Of a stretch of 22,919 nucleotides of DNA, positions 2,821 to 19,624 are shown piece by piece. The position numbers and the translations under genes are program-made. The stretch is from a virus: the IMG/VR virus record IMGVR_UViG_3300034283_000854, positions 1 through 22,919 of that record. One strand, written 5' to 3'. Position 1 is the stretch's first letter, and each line of letters opens with the position of its first letter. A model generated the notes under the pieces. It made no database searches and was not told the DNA's origin. It saw only the letters and a program-made list of their open reading frames with translations.

Positions 2821-3084
2821 TTACTTCCTTATGAAATTAGCCGATACCATCCCAACAAAGCAGCCGACAACGGTCTGGAACGCAGGTCCAATAACCTCAA
2901 ATATTTTGTCATTGCTTACATCAGGGTGAAATATGCTAATAAGCAAAACAAAGACTACAGAAACCATAATTGTAGCAAGTGACATTACAGAAATTCTTGC
3001 TACAAAATTTGAATTTTGCACGGCAAGTGCTTGTGCATCGGGTTGTGGTGGTGCTACTGGTGCAGCTTCTTTATTCTCAGCCAT
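2821..3084 (-). CDS. Small two-span membrane protein, likely lysis accessory
   Basis: An 87-residue protein if started at the ATG at 3084, which is nine bases after GGAGG. An in-frame ATG at 3093 sits directly against GGAGG and leaves no spacing, so it is unlikely. The N-terminal 25 residues are Ala/Pro/Glu-rich and soluble. Two hydrophobic spans follow at about 30-52 (ISVMSLATIMVSVVFVLLIS) and 61-83 (IGPAFQTVVGCFVGMV), with a short basic tail. There is no cleavable signal. It lies four bases before the holin-like gene, so a holin partner, antiholin or second holin is plausible. No named family is recognised. Confidence 0.72.
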   Translation of the reverse strand: MAENKEAAPVAPPQPDAQALAVQNSNFVARISVMSLATIMVSVVFVLLISIFHPDVSNDKIFEVIGPAFQTVVGCFVGMVSANFIRK

Positions 3085-3137
3085 ATAGGGCATCCTCCAA
3101 CTATACTATTAATGGCATTGTATAGTTAGGTCACTAC

Positions 3138-3145
3138 CTATTTAG
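3138..3145 (-). promoter_or_regulatory. Late-promoter box CTAAATAG before the lysis genes
   Basis: The minus strand reads CTAAATAG, a variant of the T4-type late box also present before gp13. It overlaps the TAA stop of the upstream gene and lies about 55 bases before the first lysis-region ATG. It would restart late transcription after the accessory cassette. Confidence 0.5.
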
Positions 3146-3837
3146 ATTCTTGCCACTATTACGGATGTAACAAATTTATAAGTACCCTGATTTGTTGACC
3201 ATTTACTATCATATTTTTTAGCTAAAAATATTTCTTGACATGAAATTTGTGATTTAAGATCATCTGGATTGTATATCGGATTACCATATCGCATTTTCAT
3301 ATTGCTAGTACCATGTACGGATACTAATGTACCCTTAGGTAAATTTGGTAATAGTTCATTAAAAGGTAATAGCATGTTTATAGATGGAACCATTACTATC
3401 TGACGTTTGATAAAATATTCATTTATATCATTAAACACTACATTTTTTCTAATATATTGTATATCCAGATTTGGATACATATTCGATATCGTCTTACCCA
3501 ATAAAATTACAGATTTATCATGGTCAAGTAATATTATTTTTTTAATTTTACCTATTGCATTAAAAATTTCAAGTCTCATCAAAGATAACCAAGATGCAAG
3601 TATTAATACGTTATCTTCGTCCTTAATATGTTGCATTACTTCCATGGTTGATTCATATTCAGGTATAGAGTAGGTAGTTGCTATGCTATTGCGTATAATA
3701 CAAGATACTGCATCTTCATTTAATTCTATTAGAAGTTTAGCTTTTTCTTTAACTCTATAATATAGAGTCATATAATCAATTTCATATTTTTTTGGAATAG
3801 TTTTTAGAGATACCTCTTCATAATTCTCACAAAGCAT
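3142..3837 (-). CDS. Rossmann-fold protein, possible SAM-dependent methyltransferase
   Basis: A 231-residue protein translationally coupled (TAATG) to the glycosyltransferase before it. Residues 75-108 look like strand-helix-strand of a Rossmann fold (NVLILASWLSLMRLEIFNAI, then KIILLDHDKSV). The acidic residue ending the second strand (LLDHD) is where methyltransferases bind the adenosine ribose. Further strands are DIQYIRKNVVF (125-135), QIVMVPSINMLLPF (146-159) and GTLVSVHGTSN (169-179). The usual glycine-rich GxGxG loop is replaced by ASWLS, so the assignment is tentative; a degenerate or different Rossmann enzyme is possible. The gene is AT-rich like the two upstream. Its TAA lies inside a late-promoter box. 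Confidence 0.6.
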   Translation of the reverse strand: MLCENYEEVSLKTIPKKYEIDYMTLYYRVKEKAKLLIELNEDAVSCIIRNSIATTYSIPEYESTMEVMQHIKDEDNVLILASWLSLMRLEIFNAIGKIKKIILLDHDKSVILLGKTISNMYPNLDIQYIRKNVVFNDINEYFIKRQIVMVPSINMLLPFNELLPNLPKGTLVSVHGTSNMKMRYGNPIYNPDDLKSQISCQEIFLAKKYDSKWSTNQGTYKFVTSVIVARI

Positions 3838-4586
3838 TAAAATTGACCTTCTTTAATATCATGTTTAATCCATAATTCTTTAGCCCATCCTTTAACCTCA
3901 TTTAAATCAAAACCTACACCATGAGAATTATTGAATAAGCATATTTTATATTTTTCACGATATACACCTTTAATAATATCATCGGGCCAAGCGGCGCCGG
4001 CATTATAGGTATAGATTATATTTTTAGGATGGTATGAATATTTACCTTCTAGGAGGTAAATCATAGAATGGTCAAGGCTCCAGTAAATTTTAGATATTTT
4101 ATTCATATTATCTTTGTAATATTGAAAAATATAATCTGCCTGGTCGCTCTGCCAAGTAACAAAGGATGAATTGATATTACAATAATTATGCCCATAATGG
4201 GTTATCATGGCATTTGGTGGTTGCCAATAATTATAGATTAATCTAAATTCTGTAAAACAACCATCAAGATATTCAGTTAAATCTCCATGAATTAGTATAT
4301 CCAAATCTAATAATACATATGGACCATTACAGTCCAAAAATCCCTTTCTAAAAGAACTTAGTTTTTCTATTGTAAACATAGTTTCTTTAGTACCACGAAA
4401 GAAACTATGTTTGTCAATATCATCTATTATTACTTCGGGTCTTATACCAGACCCATCATCTGTTATGCAATGAAATGCAAATGGTCTATTATAATTTTTC
4501 TTGACCATTGCATATAAACGATTGACATATATACTGGGATATTTGGTGCCCCATTTATAGCATATAAATCTTATCATATCGGTCAT
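3837..4586 (-). CDS. Glycosyltransferase-like protein (GT-A fold)
   Basis: A 249-residue protein. The N-terminus reads FICYKWGTKYPSIYVNRLYA and then PFAFHCITDDGSG, the pattern of a family of bacterial and phage glycosyltransferases. The DxD motif is LLDLDILIHGDL with Asp 94 and 96. INSSFVTW (138-145) and YWSLDHSMIYLLEG (168-181) follow, and FNNSHGVGF near 218-226 offers a C-terminal His-Gly (222-223). It uses the ATG with AGGA eight bases upstream. Its stop overlaps the next ATG by one base (TAATG). It is a diverged relative of the plus-strand neighbour, arranged head to head. Donor sugar and acceptor cannot be told. Confidence 0.78.
   Translation of the reverse strand: MTDMIRFICYKWGTKYPSIYVNRLYAMVKKNYNRPFAFHCITDDGSGIRPEVIIDDIDKHSFFRGTKETMFTIEKLSSFRKGFLDCNGPYVLLDLDILIHGDLTEYLDGCFTEFRLIYNYWQPPNAMITHYGHNYCNINSSFVTWQSDQADYIFQYYKDNMNKISKIYWSLDHSMIYLLEGKYSYHPKNIIYTYNAGAAWPDDIIKGVYREKYKICLFNNSHGVGFDLNEVKGWAKELWIKHDIKEGQF
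4563..4570 (+). promoter_or_regulatory. Candidate late promoter for the plus-strand gene
   Basis: TATAAATC on the plus strand matches seven of eight positions of the T4 late box. It ends 29 bases before the ATG of the only plus-strand gene. It lies within the opposing gene's N-terminal codons. The surrounding DNA is AT-rich, so a chance match is possible. Confidence 0.4.
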
Positions 4587-4599
4587 GAGGTAAATCCTA
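4587..4599. promoter_or_regulatory. 13-bp head-to-head spacer carrying both ribosome-binding sites
   Basis: The spacer between two divergent start codons reads GAGGTAAATCCTA on the plus strand. GAGG at 4587-4590 serves the plus gene, nine bases before its ATG. TCCT at 4595-4598 is AGGA on the minus strand, eight bases before the minus-gene ATG. Neither promoter can lie inside so short a gap, so the two transcripts must overlap around it. Confidence 0.6.
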
Positions 4600-5229
4600 A
4601 TGTATCATCTATATTCGATACTGGTTAAACCAAAATATAATATAAATTTTGTTAGAGCTATCCATAACTCCTTTAAAAAATATATATCAGAACCTTTTAT
4701 TCATACTTGCTTAACCGATGATATACAGCAGTTTGAAGGAGAAAATTTCTGTAATGTAATTGATATTAGTTGCCATAATTTACCTACATTTTGGAATAAA
4801 ATGTTATTTTTTGAAAAAAATGGTATTTGTAAGGATGGTGAATTGTGTATTTTTTTTGATCTTGATGCTAAAATTTTGAGAAATTTAACTCCTATGATAA
4901 ATCATATTAGTGGAAAAATAATTGTCGGGCTAAACAATAGCAAAATTAATAGTCATTATGCCACAAAAGCATGTAATTCTTCAGGCCATGGAAAACATTT
5001 AACCATATTAAATTCTTCATGCATGTTATGGATTGGTGGTGAACATGATAATCTATGGAAAAAATTTATCTTAAATAAAGAAGATGATATGATTAGATAT
5101 TATGGTAATGATGAATATATGACATTTGAATATCCAATGGGTTATAGACTTATTGATAGAAAATGGGTATTAGGTGACGGTACAGAAAAAACTGCAATAT
5201 ATGATAATAAGATGAAAAAAAGAAAATAA
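4600..5229 (+). CDS. Glycosyltransferase-like protein, only plus-strand gene
   Basis: A 209-residue protein with GAGG nine bases before its ATG. The sequence is very AT-rich and Lys/Asn/Ile-rich. It aligns by eye with the divergent neighbour: VKPKYNINFVRAIHNSFKK...PFIHTCLTDD near the N-terminus, DLD at 87-89 (FFDLDAKILRNL), LNSSCMLWIGG at 137-147 and GNDEYMTFEYPMG at 169-181. That is a GT-A glycosyltransferase fold with a DxD motif. The product is about 40 residues shorter than its neighbour and lacks the final His-Gly segment that often binds the metal, so it may be altered in activity. The substrate is unknown. No room exists for a promoter in the 13-bp spacer; a TATAAATC box at 4563-4570 is a candidate. 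Confidence 0.72.
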   Translation: MYHLYSILVKPKYNINFVRAIHNSFKKYISEPFIHTCLTDDIQQFEGENFCNVIDISCHNLPTFWNKMLFFEKNGICKDGELCIFFDLDAKILRNLTPMINHISGKIIVGLNNSKINSHYATKACNSSGHGKHLTILNSSCMLWIGGEHDNLWKKFILNKEDDMIRYYGNDEYMTFEYPMGYRLIDRKWVLGDGTEKTAIYDNKMKKRK

Positions 5230-5246
5230 TTTATATTATCAATAAT

Positions 5247-5888
5247 TTAACCATTTTCAATTTCTAAAATCATATTATCCCAAATATTTTTGTCATAGAT
5301 TATATAACTAAGTGTTATACGATCACAGTCTGTGCGCGCGGCGTGCCAATAAACTTTATCGGGTTTTTTAAATGGACCAAAATATCCTACCTTGATATTC
5401 CATCCAGGGTTATCTTTATATTCTGTAATTTCTTTTGTCTTTAGATCATATGAATAAAATGAACCTTCTCCGGTCTTACTATAAGACATGATAATATTAT
5501 ACCCCGGCGCATTTCCATTATTATGCCAACCTATAAAACCTTGAGGTGGGTAATACATCTTTAGCGCATTATTTCTTGCGCCAAGAAATGTAATTAGGTC
5601 ATCATCAAGCTTTCTAAGAACTGGGTTAAAATGTTCGGGTAGGGGTTTTTCATTTGGGAATGGGTTCATATCTATCCCATAACTATCTCTAGGAAATCCA
5701 AATCGATCCGGTGTTGGTAGAGCATCTTCGAGATACTGACGTTCGGTGCATTCGATATAACTCAATTGTTTTTTAAAATCATCTCGTCTTTTAATAGACA
5801 ATACTGATATATCTTGCTTAAAAAACCAATCAACAAAATTATCTAAGATCGTCAGAAGATCCGGATTGACCTTTGATAGCGTACGCAT
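5247..5888 (-). CDS. 2OG-Fe(II) oxygenase-like protein
   Basis: A 213-residue product starting at the ATG at 5888, which has GGGAG seven bases upstream. An upstream TTG at 5924 has no such site. It overlaps the glycosyltransferase gene by 50 bases. The C-terminal half has the double-stranded beta-helix signs of 2-oxoglutarate dioxygenases: GWHNNGNAPGYNIIMSY with His 122, Asn 124 two residues on, then WHAARTDCDRITLSYII with the distal His 182 and the 2-oxoglutarate-binding Arg 190. Asn stands where the family usually has Asp (HxD). The whole resembles oxygenase-like proteins found in T4-like marine phages. The substrate is unknown; hydroxylation of a protein or sugar is possible given the neighbours. 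It converges with the plus-strand gene, 17 bases apart. Confidence 0.72.
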   Translation of the reverse strand: MRTLSKVNPDLLTILDNFVDWFFKQDISVLSIKRRDDFKKQLSYIECTERQYLEDALPTPDRFGFPRDSYGIDMNPFPNEKPLPEHFNPVLRKLDDDLITFLGARNNALKMYYPPQGFIGWHNNGNAPGYNIIMSYSKTGEGSFYSYDLKTKEITEYKDNPGWNIKVGYFGPFKKPDKVYWHAARTDCDRITLSYIIYDKNIWDNMILEIENG

Positions 5889-6594
5889 TAACTTGCTCCC
5901 GTGGTATGGTATAGTGATAAACAACTATTGGTTTATCTGTTTCATCTTCATTATATACATGCACAAAATTCCATCTAGCATCATCTGGTAATATAGTTAT
6001 TTTAATTGATGGATCTTTCTTTAATAAACGCCAAAAAGTAAATTGGTCCCATGGTTTCATTTTCGGATTATATTCTGGGTATGGCCATTGTCCCGGCGCG
6101 GCCTGTATTAGATATTCGCTCCACCACTTTCTCATAAATTCTAAAATTTTTTCAGTTTTGCGATATAAAAACATACCACAATGATATGTCATATTTTCTG
6201 TATCACTAACCTTAGTACCTTTACCAGCATATTCTCTAATATTTGTTATTGCAATATCATTATCGCCTAAAAGATCAAATATCTTAGAAATATCTTCATG
6301 CCAAATTTCAGTATCACAATCAAGATACAATGTCAAATCATATGGAGTCTTATCTAATGCCCACAATTTAGCTCTTGAATGAACCGGTATGCCCACCACA
6401 ATTTTTTCAAAAAGATGAACATCTTTTTCATCAACAAACTCTTGATGAGTAAAAAGAGTTATTCTAGCATCAGGATAATGATCTTTTATTGATATCGCGC
6501 ATCTAACAGCTGCTTTATAAAAAGCAGCAGACATAGATGCAACAAAGATAATACCTTTACTAATTTCAGCTAGTTGTTTCTGTCGTTTCGGCAT
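5839..6594 (-). CDS. Glycosyltransferase, GT-A fold (GT8-like)
   Basis: A 251-residue product when started at the ATG at 6594, which has AGGTGG six to nine bases upstream. A longer frame from a TTG at 6630 lacks such a site. Residues 14-35 form the first Rossmann strand and helix (KGIIFVASMSAAFYKAAVR). The nucleotide-sugar and metal-binding motif is LYLDCDTEIW, with Asp at 92 and 94. HCGMFLYR (about 138-145) and PWDQFTFWRLL (about 181-191) are the usual acceptor-side and catalytic-region elements. A late YHY (His 227) could be the metal-binding His. Donor and acceptor are unknown. It overlaps the genes on both sides, so it belongs to the fibre-to-cassette transcript. Targets could be fibre proteins or host surface glycans. 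Confidence 0.82.
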   Translation of the reverse strand: MPKRQKQLAEISKGIIFVASMSAAFYKAAVRCAISIKDHYPDARITLFTHQEFVDEKDVHLFEKIVVGIPVHSRAKLWALDKTPYDLTLYLDCDTEIWHEDISKIFDLLGDNDIAITNIREYAGKGTKVSDTENMTYHCGMFLYRKTEKILEFMRKWWSEYLIQAAPGQWPYPEYNPKMKPWDQFTFWRLLKKDPSIKITILPDDARWNFVHVYNEDETDKPIVVYHYTIPREQVNAYAIKGQSGSSDDLR

Positions 6595-7024
6595 CGGCCA
6601 CCTTTTGAATATTATAGGTTTCTGCTGCAATTAATGACGCCAAAACTGTAACTTCAATTATTGAAGTCGCTTTTCTAAGACGAGATTTTAATTGTGTATT
6701 GGTTGAATTTCTAACTAATTCAATTTCAAATGCATCACTTTTTGCTATAAAGAGTGATTCGCGGCGCATGTTATCGACACGCCTTTGCTCTTCCATTTCA
6801 CGAGTTAATTGAACCTCTCTATGCTTTTCTACTCGTTTTGCGGTATTATTATCGATTTGTTCTACAGTAAAATTAGCAAATATTTCGTCCCAATCTGGAT
6901 TACCCTCACTTGTTTGAGAGACTGATGCAGTTACGATACCACCATCAGCATATTTGAATTTACAAACAACCTGATTTTTTAAATTTGAAGTCCAATATGG
7001 CTCTAAAATTTCTCTTTCACTCAT
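6566..7024 (-). CDS. Small charged protein after the fibre genes (possible fibre assembly factor)
   Basis: A 152-residue protein starting two bases after the repeat-fibre stop codon. The N-terminal part looks like a small beta domain (VVCKFKYADGGIVTASVS, about 19-36) followed by GNPDWDEIF. The centre (about 64-90) is strongly charged and probably a coiled helix (KRVEKHREVQLTREMEEQRR). The C-terminal third contains a helical hydrophobic stretch (IIEVTVLASLIAAETYNI). I do not recognise a named family, but similar proteins sit beside fibre genes in marine T4-like phages. Its place immediately after a fibre gene suggests a fibre chaperone or minor virion part. The 3' end overlaps the next gene by 29 bases. 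Confidence 0.7.
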   Translation of the reverse strand: MSEREILEPYWTSNLKNQVVCKFKYADGGIVTASVSQTSEGNPDWDEIFANFTVEQIDNNTAKRVEKHREVQLTREMEEQRRVDNMRRESLFIAKSDAFEIELVRNSTNTQLKSRLRKATSIIEVTVLASLIAAETYNIQKVADAETTETTS

Positions 7025-7025
7025 C

Positions 7026-8354
7026 TTATGCAGTCCTTATCCAGAGGTTGATTGTTGATATTGTTTCTAATGCGGCCTGAATGGTTGCACCGGTATAAAC
7101 CCCAGTATAATTTCCTGTATATGCACCTGTAAATGATTGTGCATATGATCCTGTATAGATCCCCGTAAAATTACCTGTATATGCTCCTGAATAAACTCCT
7201 GTAAAATTACCTGTATATGCTCCTGAATAAACTCCTGTAAAAAATCCTGTATAAGACCCTGCATAGAATCCTGTAAAAAATCCTGTATAAGACCCCGCAT
7301 AAAATCCTGTAAAAAAACCCGTATAGAATCCTGTAAAATTACCATATGGCACGCCGCCAAAGAAAAGTGTATAAACTCCAGTAAACCCTTGCGATCTAAA
7401 TCTAGCATATGCCCCAGTAAACCCTTGTGAATATGTACCAGTATATGCGCCGGCAAATGCTCGTGAATATGCACCAGTATATGCGCCGGTAAATGCTCGT
7501 GAATATGTACCAGTATATGCGCCGGTAAATGCTCGTGAATATGCTCCCGTATATACGCCGGCAAAATTGCCTGTATAAGATCCTGTATAGGTTCCCGCAT
7601 ATACACCAGTATAATTCTGATTAGTAAGTTGGTTTCTAGTATCATCAAATGCTGCACCAACAGTAGTCCAAGTTCCGGGTGTAGGAGCTGAAGTTTGAAC
7701 TCTATATGTACCGATATTTGTTGCTATAATTCTATTGCGTAGTCGATTTGTTAAAGATTGTATCTCCGCATCTGTCATTTGCTGAACAGATTTTGTTGGG
7801 CTGGTTTGATATTTTAACGGTCTTATTGTTGTTGGTGCAGTTGCATTTGTTCTACGCCACAATGTAGAAGTATTTGTACCTGCACTTGTTGTATTTGTAA
7901 TTATACCAATTGATGTCCAGGTGCCTGCAGGTGATGATGGCTGCAATGCATAAGAACCTACACCACCAGTAACCATAGTATTAAGTGCTCTAGAAATAAC
8001 AGAATCATTTAACTGAGTATCATTCTGTTGTCTAACACCAGTCGAAGAATATTCTACTGGCCTAGTTAATGATTCGGATGCGCTAGAAGTAATATCCTGC
8101 TTAAAGGTATATGTTACAGAATTGGTTGTTGTTCCAACTGGATGATCACCCACAGCAAAGGGTCTGGTAGTATCTACAAATGTACCAATTGATGTGCCTG
8201 TTGCACCATCAATATTGACAGTACCCAAACCGCTATTTGTGCTGGCAAAATTTTTAAGAATGACATCAACGGCATAATCCATTTCCGCATCGGTCATCGT
8301 CTGAAGACCTTGGAATGTAGCTCCTGATAATCTGACTTTTAAAGGATTGGCCAT
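7026..8354 (-). CDS. Tail-fibre-like protein with 44 tetrapeptide repeats
   Basis: A 442-residue protein preceded by GAGGA. Residues 1-247 hold three related modules. The first and third start with the QxMTDAE helix (18-24 and 191-197). The second and third share a hairpin (GSYALQPSSPAGTWTSIG at 133-150, GTYRVQTSAPTPGTWTTVG at 215-233). Two modules also end in DTTR or DDTR. Residues 248-423 are 44 uninterrupted four-residue units, mostly [YF]-[TAS]-G-x. A 19-residue tail ends LWIRTA. No transmembrane or enzymatic motif is seen. Position among fibre genes, repeat architecture and lack of Cys suggest an extended, exposed fibre or decoration. Tyr/Thr/Gly repeats of similar look occur in other marine phage structural proteins, but I know of no established function. 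A long open frame on the same strand in another reading frame is a by-product of the repeat. Confidence 0.85.
   Translation of the reverse strand: MANPLKVRLSGATFQGLQTMTDAEMDYAVDVILKNFASTNSGLGTVNIDGATGTSIGTFVDTTRPFAVGDHPVGTTTNSVTYTFKQDITSSASESLTRPVEYSSTGVRQQNDTQLNDSVISRALNTMVTGGVGSYALQPSSPAGTWTSIGIITNTTSAGTNTSTLWRRTNATAPTTIRPLKYQTSPTKSVQQMTDAEIQSLTNRLRNRIIATNIGTYRVQTSAPTPGTWTTVGAAFDDTRNQLTNQNYTGVYAGTYTGSYTGNFAGVYTGAYSRAFTGAYTGTYSRAFTGAYTGAYSRAFAGAYTGTYSQGFTGAYARFRSQGFTGVYTLFFGGVPYGNFTGFYTGFFTGFYAGSYTGFFTGFYAGSYTGFFTGVYSGAYTGNFTGVYSGAYTGNFTGIYTGSYAQSFTGAYTGNYTGVYTGATIQAALETISTINLWIRTA
7086..7613 (-). repeat. 12-bp coding repeat encoding 44 [YF]-[TAS]-G-x tetrads
   Basis: The repeat runs without a phase break over 176 codons. 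Higher-order 36-bp units are visible. YSRA-FTGA-YTG(T/A) recurs in the first part, YTGF-FTGF-YAGS in the middle, and YSGA-YTGN-FTGV toward the end. Different supermotifs dominate different parts, which is the pattern expected of local duplication by slippage or unequal recombination. The phase is kept through an irregular stretch (units 18-23, which include YARF, RSQG and PYGN). Confidence 0.92.
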
Positions 8355-8947: not shown

Positions 8948-9172
8948 CTATTCCTTGGACCCGATAAGCTGACGTAGCAGGTCCTTAATTTCGGCAACAT
9001 CCTGCTTTAGGGTATTTATCTCATCTAATTTAGCTTGCATCTCGGCCGCCTTTTTCTTTCTCATTTTATATGCTTCTAATCCAGCAAGATCAGTTGAGAT
9101 TATGGCTTTGTTAGCCATATCTTTAATATAACCTGATTCATTTTTTATTTTAGCAAAAGGTGGATTTGTCAT
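8948..9172 (-). CDS. Small coiled-coil virion-associated protein
   Basis: A 74-residue protein whose ATG overlaps the stop of the giant structural gene by four bases (ATGA), implying translational coupling. The N-terminus (MTNPPFAKIKNESGY) is followed by a basic stretch (YKMRKKKAAEMQAKL, about 35-49). A heptad-like helix runs to the C-terminus (LDEINTLKQDVAEIKDLLRQL), consistent with a coiled coil. Small proteins of this type accompany the giant structural gene in marine T4-like phages, so it may be a trimeric linker or assembly partner. No membrane span or catalytic motif is seen. A late-promoter-like box (9013-9020) lies inside the gene. Confidence 0.75.
   Translation of the reverse strand: MTNPPFAKIKNESGYIKDMANKAIISTDLAGLEAYKMRKKKAAEMQAKLDEINTLKQDVAEIKDLLRQLIGSKE
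9013..9020 (-). promoter_or_regulatory. Possible late promoter inside the 74-residue gene
   Basis: The minus strand reads GATAAATA, the same box as upstream of gp25 and gp8. It lies about 70 bases before the fibre gene that starts at 8941. It falls within coding sequence, so a chance match in AT-rich DNA is possible. Confidence 0.3.
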
Positions 9173-17143: not shown

Positions 17144-19624
17144 CTAGGTTGACCTTTGGTAGGTATAAACTGTGTCGGTTGATGTACCCACAACAAACAA
17201 TTTTGTTTGATCTATGCTTAATGCTAACCCATGTGGAACTGATTCTCGGGATCCAACATTTAAGCTCTTATTATCATATGTTGCTGTAGAAATATCCCAC
17301 GCCGTTGATAGTGTATATTGATAAACTGTATCAGTGGTGCTACCAACTACAAGAACCTGTTTACCATCACTACCAAAAACCATAGCTAGTGGGCTATTTT
17401 CTTGTGTGGCCACCGATAAAAATTTAGATGCATACGTTGCTGTAGAAACATCCCACGGGGTTGATAGTGTATATTGAAAAATTCTATCATTGGTAGAACC
17501 GAGAATATACATCTTGCTACCATTATCACCAAATTCAACAGACTGTGGTGCAGTATCTTGTGATGATACTAATGCACTTTTGGATGCAAATGTTGCTGTA
17601 GATACATCCCAAGCTTTAGATAAAGAATATTGATAAACTCTATCCCTAATGGTACCAACAATATACATTGTATGACCTTCAGGATGAAATTTTACATCGG
17701 TTGGTGATGTATCACCAGCACCGGTTGTTGATGTATTTGCAATTGATATATTTTTAGAAGTATAAGTTGCGGTTGATACATCAAATGCTGTTGATAATTT
17801 ATATTGATATACTCTATCCGTATTCGACCCAATCATGTACATTTGTCTACCTGATGGGCTAAAGGTTAATCCAACTGCTTGACTATCTTGAGCAGCAACG
17901 GATACATTTGCCGATCTTAATGTTGCCTTATTAACACTTAATGTAATCGGTAAAATTGCTTCTTGACTATAAATGAAACCATGATTATGTGATAGATTTG
18001 TATTTGATACAAACTGATAGCTACCAAACATCTTAGAGCCTGCAGGATGCAATACTCTCTTGACAACATCTCTATATCGATCTACAATCTCTGTGACCTT
18101 AATCAGATATGAATATTCCTGATAAAAATCATTATCTTGTAATCTCATATTCCAGCTAAGAAAGCCTTTAGTATCAATGTATCTACCCGGCTGAGTAATA
18201 ACGCCAGCAATAATAGGTTTGATATCAGCGTTATATGTTGTATTTCTAATGGTAAAACGCTGATTACCTGCTAAATCAATATTCTGATCTATTGTGGGTG
18301 CGGTGCCTCGAGAATTTACTACAATTGCATCAGTAAATTTATCAAATGATGCATCCGATGATATTACCCCAAGAGATGAAATTGCTCCGGGTGCTCGTAT
18401 TGGAATAATTACTGCATCATCACCCTGAAGTCTACCAGCTTGGCCAGGCACACCTAGCTCGAATACAATTTGATCCCGTGTAGTAACTGTTGGTAATTCC
18501 GGTACGTAATTAATACCAACACTAGTAACTGAAATTGCATTAATTGATCCAGCAACTGAATTTGCAAAATTTAAGGATGTTGCAAGAGTCGATGATATAT
18601 TGGCCGCCGCCAAATTTGCAGATACCGAAGCTGTATTTGTACCAAGAGATACGAATGTTGGGCCCGTATTAAGAACTACATTAGATAATGGTGCTATCTG
18701 ATTTGTATTTAAACTAACAAATGTAGTATTAGATAAAGATGTAACAATAGCAGCCGCACCAGTGCCCGATCCACCTTCCACAATTATTGCAGTTTGACCT
18801 AAACGATAACCACTACCTCCTCTATTGATGCGAAATGATACTGGTCCTAAATCATTTGTTGATGCTACTCTTGCTGATGCTGTAGCCCCTGATGAGGTTA
18901 TTATAACAGAATCGCCGGATTGGTGAAAAGCACCGGGATCAACAACTTGTTCAATACCAATTAAGCTACCAAATGCTGAAGTAATTGTTGCATTATTACC
19001 TAAATCATCAGATACAGTTTCACCATCAATAAACTCACCAACAACATTTTCAACAAGCAATTCAAATAGTGGATGACCAAGAACCACAACGCGAGTAACT
19101 TTCTGTACCCGAGCCGTCGCACCTGAAACTGATCCGACAATATTTCTACCGTCTAAATTAGTAGGTAGTGTTGAAAATGGATTACCAACTCTAAGTATTG
19201 TCTCTCGTACCCATCTACCATCAGATGCTCTTAGTATAAAATCACCAGGATAAACAATCTCTATTTGCTTATTGAACAGCGCATAGAATAGAAAATCATA
19301 TGAAAATTTAGATCCTCTAGTTCTATAGAAATCTCTAATATGCTTGACAAGTAATCTTTTATCGGCCAAAACATCTTTTGGAATGTTTAACATAAATTCG
19401 CGTTGAAAATATTCAACAAATGAATCTAAAGTTCGATCTATATCTTGATTATCAATTAAGCTTCGGGTCGCATTAACAGCCTGACCAGACTGCTCCATAA
19501 ATTCATAATAAGCTTTTAAGAAGGATACAAATCGGGGTCCTTCTTCACGTATGAATGCAGGAAATTGTGCCTCAATAAGAGGTGATATTTTTTTGAATGT
19601 TTCTTCGGCGCCTGATATTGTCAT
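17144..19624 (-). CDS. Baseplate-associated virion structural protein (gp7 position) with C-terminal beta-propeller
   Basis: An 826-residue protein in the position of T4 gene 7, directly after gp6. The N-terminal 150 residues resemble the marine T4-like virion protein that follows gp6: QFPAFIREEGPRFVSFLKAY at about 20-39, NIPKDVLADKRLLVKHIRD, and PGDFILRASDGRWV near 125-138. The middle is beta-rich with recurring SGATARV-type strands. Residues from about 560 to 826 are a repeat domain: blocks of 52 residues with the pattern xxMYhhGSxxDxVYQYxLSxxWDVSTATY, probably a five-bladed propeller. Repeats of this type occur in marine phage structural proteins; fused to a baseplate wedge protein they suggest a surface-exposed binding or spacer domain. 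Whether the N-terminal part is a true gp7 homologue cannot be decided here. A late promoter for gp8 lies between its stop and the next gene. Confidence 0.85.
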   Translation of the reverse strand: MTISGAEETFKKISPLIEAQFPAFIREEGPRFVSFLKAYYEFMEQSGQAVNATRSLIDNQDIDRTLDSFVEYFQREFMLNIPKDVLADKRLLVKHIRDFYRTRGSKFSYDFLFYALFNKQIEIVYPGDFILRASDGRWVRETILRVGNPFSTLPTNLDGRNIVGSVSGATARVQKVTRVVVLGHPLFELLVENVVGEFIDGETVSDDLGNNATITSAFGSLIGIEQVVDPGAFHQSGDSVIITSSGATASARVASTNDLGPVSFRINRGGSGYRLGQTAIIVEGGSGTGAAAIVTSLSNTTFVSLNTNQIAPLSNVVLNTGPTFVSLGTNTASVSANLAAANISSTLATSLNFANSVAGSINAISVTSVGINYVPELPTVTTRDQIVFELGVPGQAGRLQGDDAVIIPIRAPGAISSLGVISSDASFDKFTDAIVVNSRGTAPTIDQNIDLAGNQRFTIRNTTYNADIKPIIAGVITQPGRYIDTKGFLSWNMRLQDNDFYQEYSYLIKVTEIVDRYRDVVKRVLHPAGSKMFGSYQFVSNTNLSHNHGFIYSQEAILPITLSVNKATLRSANVSVAAQDSQAVGLTFSPSGRQMYMIGSNTDRVYQYKLSTAFDVSTATYTSKNISIANTSTTGAGDTSPTDVKFHPEGHTMYIVGTIRDRVYQYSLSKAWDVSTATFASKSALVSSQDTAPQSVEFGDNGSKMYILGSTNDRIFQYTLSTPWDVSTATYASKFLSVATQENSPLAMVFGSDGKQVLVVGSTTDTVYQYTLSTAWDISTATYDNKSLNVGSRESVPHGLALSIDQTKLFVVGTSTDTVYTYQRST
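17147..17884 (-). repeat. 156-bp coding repeats (52-residue beta-propeller blades)
   Basis: Residues 581-826 of the 826-residue protein consist of units beginning near 581, 640, 692, 744 and 796. Three of them are exactly 52 residues, the first is 59, and the last is a half-length 31. Each carries a Gly then MY or equivalent, then G(S/T)xxDxVYQYxLSxxWDVSTATYxxK. The half unit at the C-terminus (ending TDTVYTYQRST) could be completed by the strand before the first unit (KATLRSANVSVAAQD), giving ring closure. The repeats are also visible in the DNA, for example GTTGATAGTGTATATTGA near 17302 and again near 17460. Confidence 0.85.

Follow-up and report, generated by a model that had tools for sequence, protein, structure and literature searches.

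What does a phage protein build from a long, exactly periodic run of Tyr- and Gly-rich units? The window (the whole 22,919-nucleotide viral stretch analysed, IMGVR_UViG_3300034283_000854) encodes a 442-residue protein (7026-8354, minus strand), of which residues 248-423 (nt 7086-7613) consist of exactly 44 units of four residues. The pattern [YF][TAS]Gx was matched by 34 of these units, whereas none of 10,000 composition-preserving shuffles gave more than 7; Tyr or Phe stood at position 1 and Thr, Ala or Ser at position 2 in 42/44 units each, and Gly at position 3 in 36/44. The 44 units described in an earlier note on this DNA, made from the letters alone, were thus confirmed, as were its nested 12-residue supermotif (self-identity of 0.65 at a lag of 12 residues, compared to 0.38-0.40 at lags of 4 and 8) and its 36-bp duplications, found by TRF as two arrays (7143-7333 and 7407-7565). 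The tract had also been called uninterrupted, which holds for the four-residue count but not for the motif, as units 18-23 in the middle of the tract (YARF RSQG FTGV YTLF FGGV PYGN) depart from it. This break is the most informative part of the tract; that note had overlooked that the tract has a central apex and arms of equal length, and that genes for a putative chaperone, a glycosyltransferase (GT) and an oxygenase-like protein are linked to it. A 197-aa ORF in an alternative frame over the repeat (7067-7660, minus strand) is likely a by-product of the repeat codons.

Genomic setting and relatives of the fibre protein

The genes around the ORF form the tail/baseplate region of a T4-like phage, including one (8948-9172) matching a virion structural PHROG, which bears out the fibre-like context proposed earlier and, as genomic context, suggests a role as a virion tail fibre or spike. 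The fibre protein of the window had no Pfam or PHROGs match; when it was searched against PHROGs together with 37 relatives, one member matched one PHROG (5e-4), and a PDB sequence search with the fibre profile gave no match. No description of the tetrad repeat or of the gene set was found in the openly available literature. Elsewhere in the window, the product of 17144-19624 (minus strand) has, in its C-terminal part, repeats that read YQYTLSTAWDVSTATY and may form a beta-propeller.

Related loci (L004-L298) were collected from viral-contig scans using the fibre, a fibre alignment, the GT, the oxygenase and the tract-less fibre of locus L060 as queries; L225-L234 derive from cellular genomes, and the closest GT relatives among them (L225-L227) appear to be phage contigs placed in metagenome bins. 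The fibre relatives have in common an N-terminal domain and a C-terminal strand, ending mostly in LW.R, and the tract between the two ranges from almost none to about 2,300 residues. The length variation anticipated from the duplications was therefore borne out between relatives, for which unit counts were compared. Near-identical contigs showed no change in tract length: of L022 and L072, which match the window at 100% identity along 12.2 and 6.3 kb, respectively, the former spans the tract.

The nearest annotated relative was Phage C48C1 (OQ984149, Kyanoviridae), in which a homologous fibre (26.5% identity over 97% of the query) is likewise followed by homologues of the chaperone, GT and oxygenase (CDS0201-0204). 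Its fibre differs in being far longer (3347 aa), with a much longer tract and other domains inserted, and the proteins are annotated as hypothetical. Giant fibres with globular domains inserted in the tract were seen in L131 (2277-8552) and in C48C1 CDS0201 (L001:17983-28026), one inserted domain resembling, by eye, a carbohydrate-binding-type fold. Small proteins with short Tyr-rich tracts and another C-terminal domain were observed 5' of the fibre in L273 (4675-5514), L285 (4782-5540) and L287 (4710-5567).

Two equal arms around a central apex

In the AlphaFold2 (AF2) monomer model of the window protein, the N-domain (residues 1-247; 7614-8354, minus strand), which is conserved in relatives, had pLDDT mostly above 90. 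It comprises three similar modules (about residues 1-98, 99-178 and 179-247), each a helix followed by a terminal beta-hairpin, a similarity noted on visual comparison of the sequence and the order of DSSP elements. The equally conserved C-terminal cap TIQAALETISTINLWIRTA (residues 424-442 and stop; 7026-7085, minus strand) was modelled with pLDDT 91-98 and a strand at residues 419-440, which occupies the place of strand 2 in the terminal hairpins of modules 1 and 2 (78-86 and 159-170). As the cap thus replaces the second strand of the module-3 hairpin (modules compared by eye), the tract is an insertion in the hairpin loop; according to the model, it is the expanded loop of the last N-domain beta-hairpin.

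The tract itself falls into an outbound arm (residues 248-333, i.e. 86 residues ahead of the apex Gly; 7356-7613, minus strand), an apex YTLFFGGVPYGNFTG (residues 328-342, apex Gly 334; 7329-7373, minus strand), proposed to be the hairpin turn or tip, and an inbound arm (residues 335-423; 7086-7352, minus strand), with a right minus left difference of 3 residues as in relatives. Both the central position and the motif of the apex are conserved in relatives, whose arms measured 10, 22, 30, 42, 50, 68, 90 and 112 residues, compared to 86 in the window. Tract starts were set at the first aromatic past the module-3 D(T)R and ends at 14 residues ahead of the final LW.R. With these anchors, the apex motif lay at the exact centre in 31 of 67 non-redundant tracts (19 tract lengths, 23 to 187 residues), compared to a mean of 1.0 and a maximum of 5 at 80 other offsets, counts to be read with caution because anchors and apex patterns were picked after seeing the sequences. 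A second test used the same anchors and scored nothing but breaks in the four-residue spacing of aromatics: the centre fell inside such an interruption in 56/75 non-redundant tracts (expected 19.4, maximum 38 in 1e5 simulations), and the longest interruption lay at most 3 residues from the centre in 40/73 (expected 8.0, maximum 21); these simulated limits are not formal probabilities, since redundant tracts were removed by k-mer filtering of the N-domain rather than with a tree. The 363-residue tract of L197 also fitted a central apex.

Among 30 single-apex members, right minus left equalled 3 in 20, while several of the other 10 reflected regex matches off centre. The Pearson correlation of single-apex arm lengths (0.15) was discarded, being spoiled by false regex matches, and whole-column information content proved a poor apex statistic, dominated by the repeat itself. 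In a batch fetched later, the preset motif lay at the centre in 7 of 19 loci, and most of the remainder had, by eye, a variant apex (AADY[SD]G) in that position. Overall, two equal arms around a turn, as in an antiparallel hairpin, were found in tracts of no more than about 360 residues, above which no simple single central apex was seen. Three loci (L025, L117 and L118) carried a pair of apex-like motifs lying at roughly equal distances to either side of the centre (at 0.31 and 0.66 in L025).

Length changes were paired in close relatives, with arms of 68, 90 and 112 residues in L185, L184 and L187, 30 and 38 in L122 and L033, and 42 and 74 in L078 and L076; the more distant pair of L024 and the window had arms of 50 and 86. 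Two-residue phase breaks were equal in number in both arms of L126, L173, L183, L191, L196 and L218 (6 of the 13 members listed) and unequal in the other seven, often beside the apex and partly through noisy detection. An unrelated Gly-rich protein (L134:7741-8994) was seen to have a tetrad tract embedded in it; the apex is again the same (YIRYYSGRNAG) and is flanked by 11 and 10 in-phase aromatics in a simple count, which suggests that the hairpin is a portable module.

The pairing of residues between arms was described by counting from the apex Gly (0), residues i and j being partners when i + j = S. Cross-arm mutual information was maximal at S=2, where 42.7% of 2,521 pairs were aromatic-Gly and Gly-Gly pairs rounded to 0.0%; by our arithmetic, S=2 is likewise obtained for module 3 when the register that AF2 assigns to the similar hairpin of module 2 is carried over. 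Members without phase breaks leave the register unfixed, because mutual information there was highest at S=-2 and also high at 0, 2 and 4, dropping outside this range; conserved positions near the base and the apex may contribute. In the AF2 model of L087, which has a short tract of 47 residues, a two-residue turn gives, for the region around the apex (pLDDT about 70), a register unlike S=2. Because the members without breaks and the L087 turn speak against S=2, we treat the cross-arm facing of Tyr or Phe with Gly as inferred.

A probable hairpin ribbon and its alternatives

The best reading of the tract is an antiparallel Tyr-Gly hairpin ribbon with an apical turn, to which we assign a probability of about 0.75. 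The last N-domain hairpin would project outward as a two-stranded antiparallel ribbon, arm 1 heading out, the conserved glycine-rich apex reversing the chain and arm 2 returning as the C-terminal strand of the domain. The four-residue unit would suit such a ribbon, as one face of each arm would alternate aromatic residues and Gly, and the offset between arms would set each Tyr or Phe over a Gly of the opposite arm. Length changes would be paired because the arms must remain equal. The equal arms, central apex, mirrored phase breaks, L087 hairpin and three-gene linkage are supported by sequence or model; the oligomer state and the putative role of the apex as a contact tip are inferred.

The earlier note had suggested a beta-solenoid, and a triangular one, with 12 residues per coil and three four-residue sides, would agree with the strong 12-residue superperiod and with the two-residue strands (EE--EE--EE) at about residues 344-380 of the window model, where pLDDT is 39-49. 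A one-way coil, however, would not explain why the arms are equal, why an apex sits at the centre or why lengths change in pairs, and the expectation for a one-way array, that repeat number is free to change anywhere, did not hold, as arms covary in tracts up to about 360 residues. The confident AF2 model of L087 (mean pLDDT 90.6) is one continuous beta-hairpin, with strands at 236-268 and 271-312 around the turn. The symmetry, the mirrored phase breaks and this hairpin favour a two-arm ribbon, and the solenoid now appears unlikely. The low pLDDT of the window tract in the monomer model (mostly 27-50) and its composition, rich in Gly, Thr and Ser, would also fit a flexible, largely disordered Tyr/Gly-rich linker. 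We consider such a linker very improbable, as arms that are equal to the residue, with phase breaks mirrored between them, imply that every residue has a defined partner, and as the short member L087 was predicted as strand throughout.

Equal arms might also arise as a by-product of repeat growth, such as expansion around a fixed central sequence without any pairing, and blocks of 36 bp and 66 bp have clearly been duplicated. Yet the 22-residue additions that distinguish L185, L184 and L187 differ between arms, with a KTYSG type on the left and a GTSAYSG type on the right, and, with sequences that differ in this way, the two arms seem to have grown in separate steps of equal size. Moreover, Gly never stands opposite Gly at S=2, even in members with phase breaks, which leaves growth without pairing a quite improbable account of the symmetry.

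Foldseek returned no match at E ≤ 0.001 for the window model against the PDB or for the L087 model against BFVD. A Gly-Tyr 'mortise-tenon' is reported for outer-membrane beta-barrels, where Tyr interacts with Gly of the adjacent strand (PMC5542473). The cross-strand contact is like the register inferred for the tract but occurs as a conserved pair in a membrane barrel, whereas here it would be repeated along a whole phage ribbon. The hairpin stems of pore-forming toxins are also very long two-stranded hairpins projecting from a globular part, but have no sequence relation to the tract and only a weak shape match (VIA-align Z 2.0-2.7, mostly over 40-47 residues); the weak resemblance to perforin-2 P2 is likewise one of shape only. 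We know of no tandem Tyr/Gly repeat in such stems.

More tentatively, and at well under even odds, the whole would represent a novel repeat architecture in which the two halves zip via Tyr-Gly pairs, length evolves only by matched changes, and a dedicated chaperone, GT and oxygenase modify the ribbon. If the hairpin ribbon is confirmed, a four-residue code would offer a simple route to a length-tunable fibre, and the covariation of indels, which is rare and akin to base pairs in RNA helices, would make structure readable from metagenome repeat counts.

Linked genes for a putative chaperone, a glycosyltransferase-like and an oxygenase-like protein

Downstream of the fibre gene lies a small conserved protein (6566-7024, minus strand) that adjoins the fibre in relatives, 116 unique copies being found beside it. 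The window protein had no Pfam or PHROGs family match, and its position makes it a putative fibre-assembly chaperone. It is followed by a GT-A/GT8-like glycosyltransferase (5839-6630, minus strand) with an invariant DxD (D92 and D94 in A4 numbering, across 46 sequences) and weak GT-A family matches: Nucleotid_trans was matched by 7/46 members (best 3.3e-7) and Glyco_transf_8 by 1/46, the window protein falling below Pfam cut-offs. The best PDB match of the GT profile was glycogenin-1 (E 0.005, first 100 columns), a GT8 tyrosine O-glucosyltransferase; this match is weak and partial, and the link to tyrosine is a lead only. The third gene encodes a putative 2OG-Fe(II) oxygenase-like protein (5247-5924, minus strand) with an invariant H122-x-N124 ... 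H182 ... R190, in which Asn replaces the expected iron-binding Asp/Glu. Its family matches were weak and limited to single members (phrog_61, E 0.007; PF03171, E 0.037), a PDB sequence search with its profile gave no match, and on sequence grounds 2OG-oxygenase activity is uncertain.

A tract-bearing fibre was found upstream in 108 of the 111 chaperone loci with upstream sequence, and both the GT and the oxygenase downstream in 108 of the 109 unique loci with enough downstream sequence, a linkage that is partly ascertained because the seeds came from tract-bearing loci. Later-fetched loci agreed with it. The three upstream exceptions were L169 (short tract), L194 (fibre at 3757-7518, missed by the distance rule) and L060. 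In L060, a single case and also the one downstream exception, the N-domain is joined to the cap without a tract (fibre 2897-4279) and the chaperone is kept, but GT and oxygenase are absent from the following 6.6 kb.

It is plausible that the GT and the oxygenase modify the tract. Against this, both might act elsewhere, on host glycans, DNA or another tail protein, and be linked merely as part of a tail-gene block; 2OG-Fe(II) oxygenases of phage genomes are, to our knowledge, not generally tied to tract proteins, and the cassettes of L137 and L169 still carry both enzymes despite very short tracts. However, the linkage persists for loci found via the fibre, the GT or the oxygenase, the tract-less L060 lacks both enzymes in spite of its N-domain, cap and chaperone, and in L134 the GT directly follows the unrelated protein with the embedded tract. 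Action on another substrate is a serious contender that we place slightly below an even chance. A conserved phage gene set is thereby named, whose role in fibre-protein modification is open to test.

Two more GT-like proteins are encoded nearby in the window (3837-4586, minus strand; 4600-5229, plus strand), the latter matching PHROG 1962 glycosyltransferase (E 9e-5), and L060 encodes proteins that, by eye, resemble the former.
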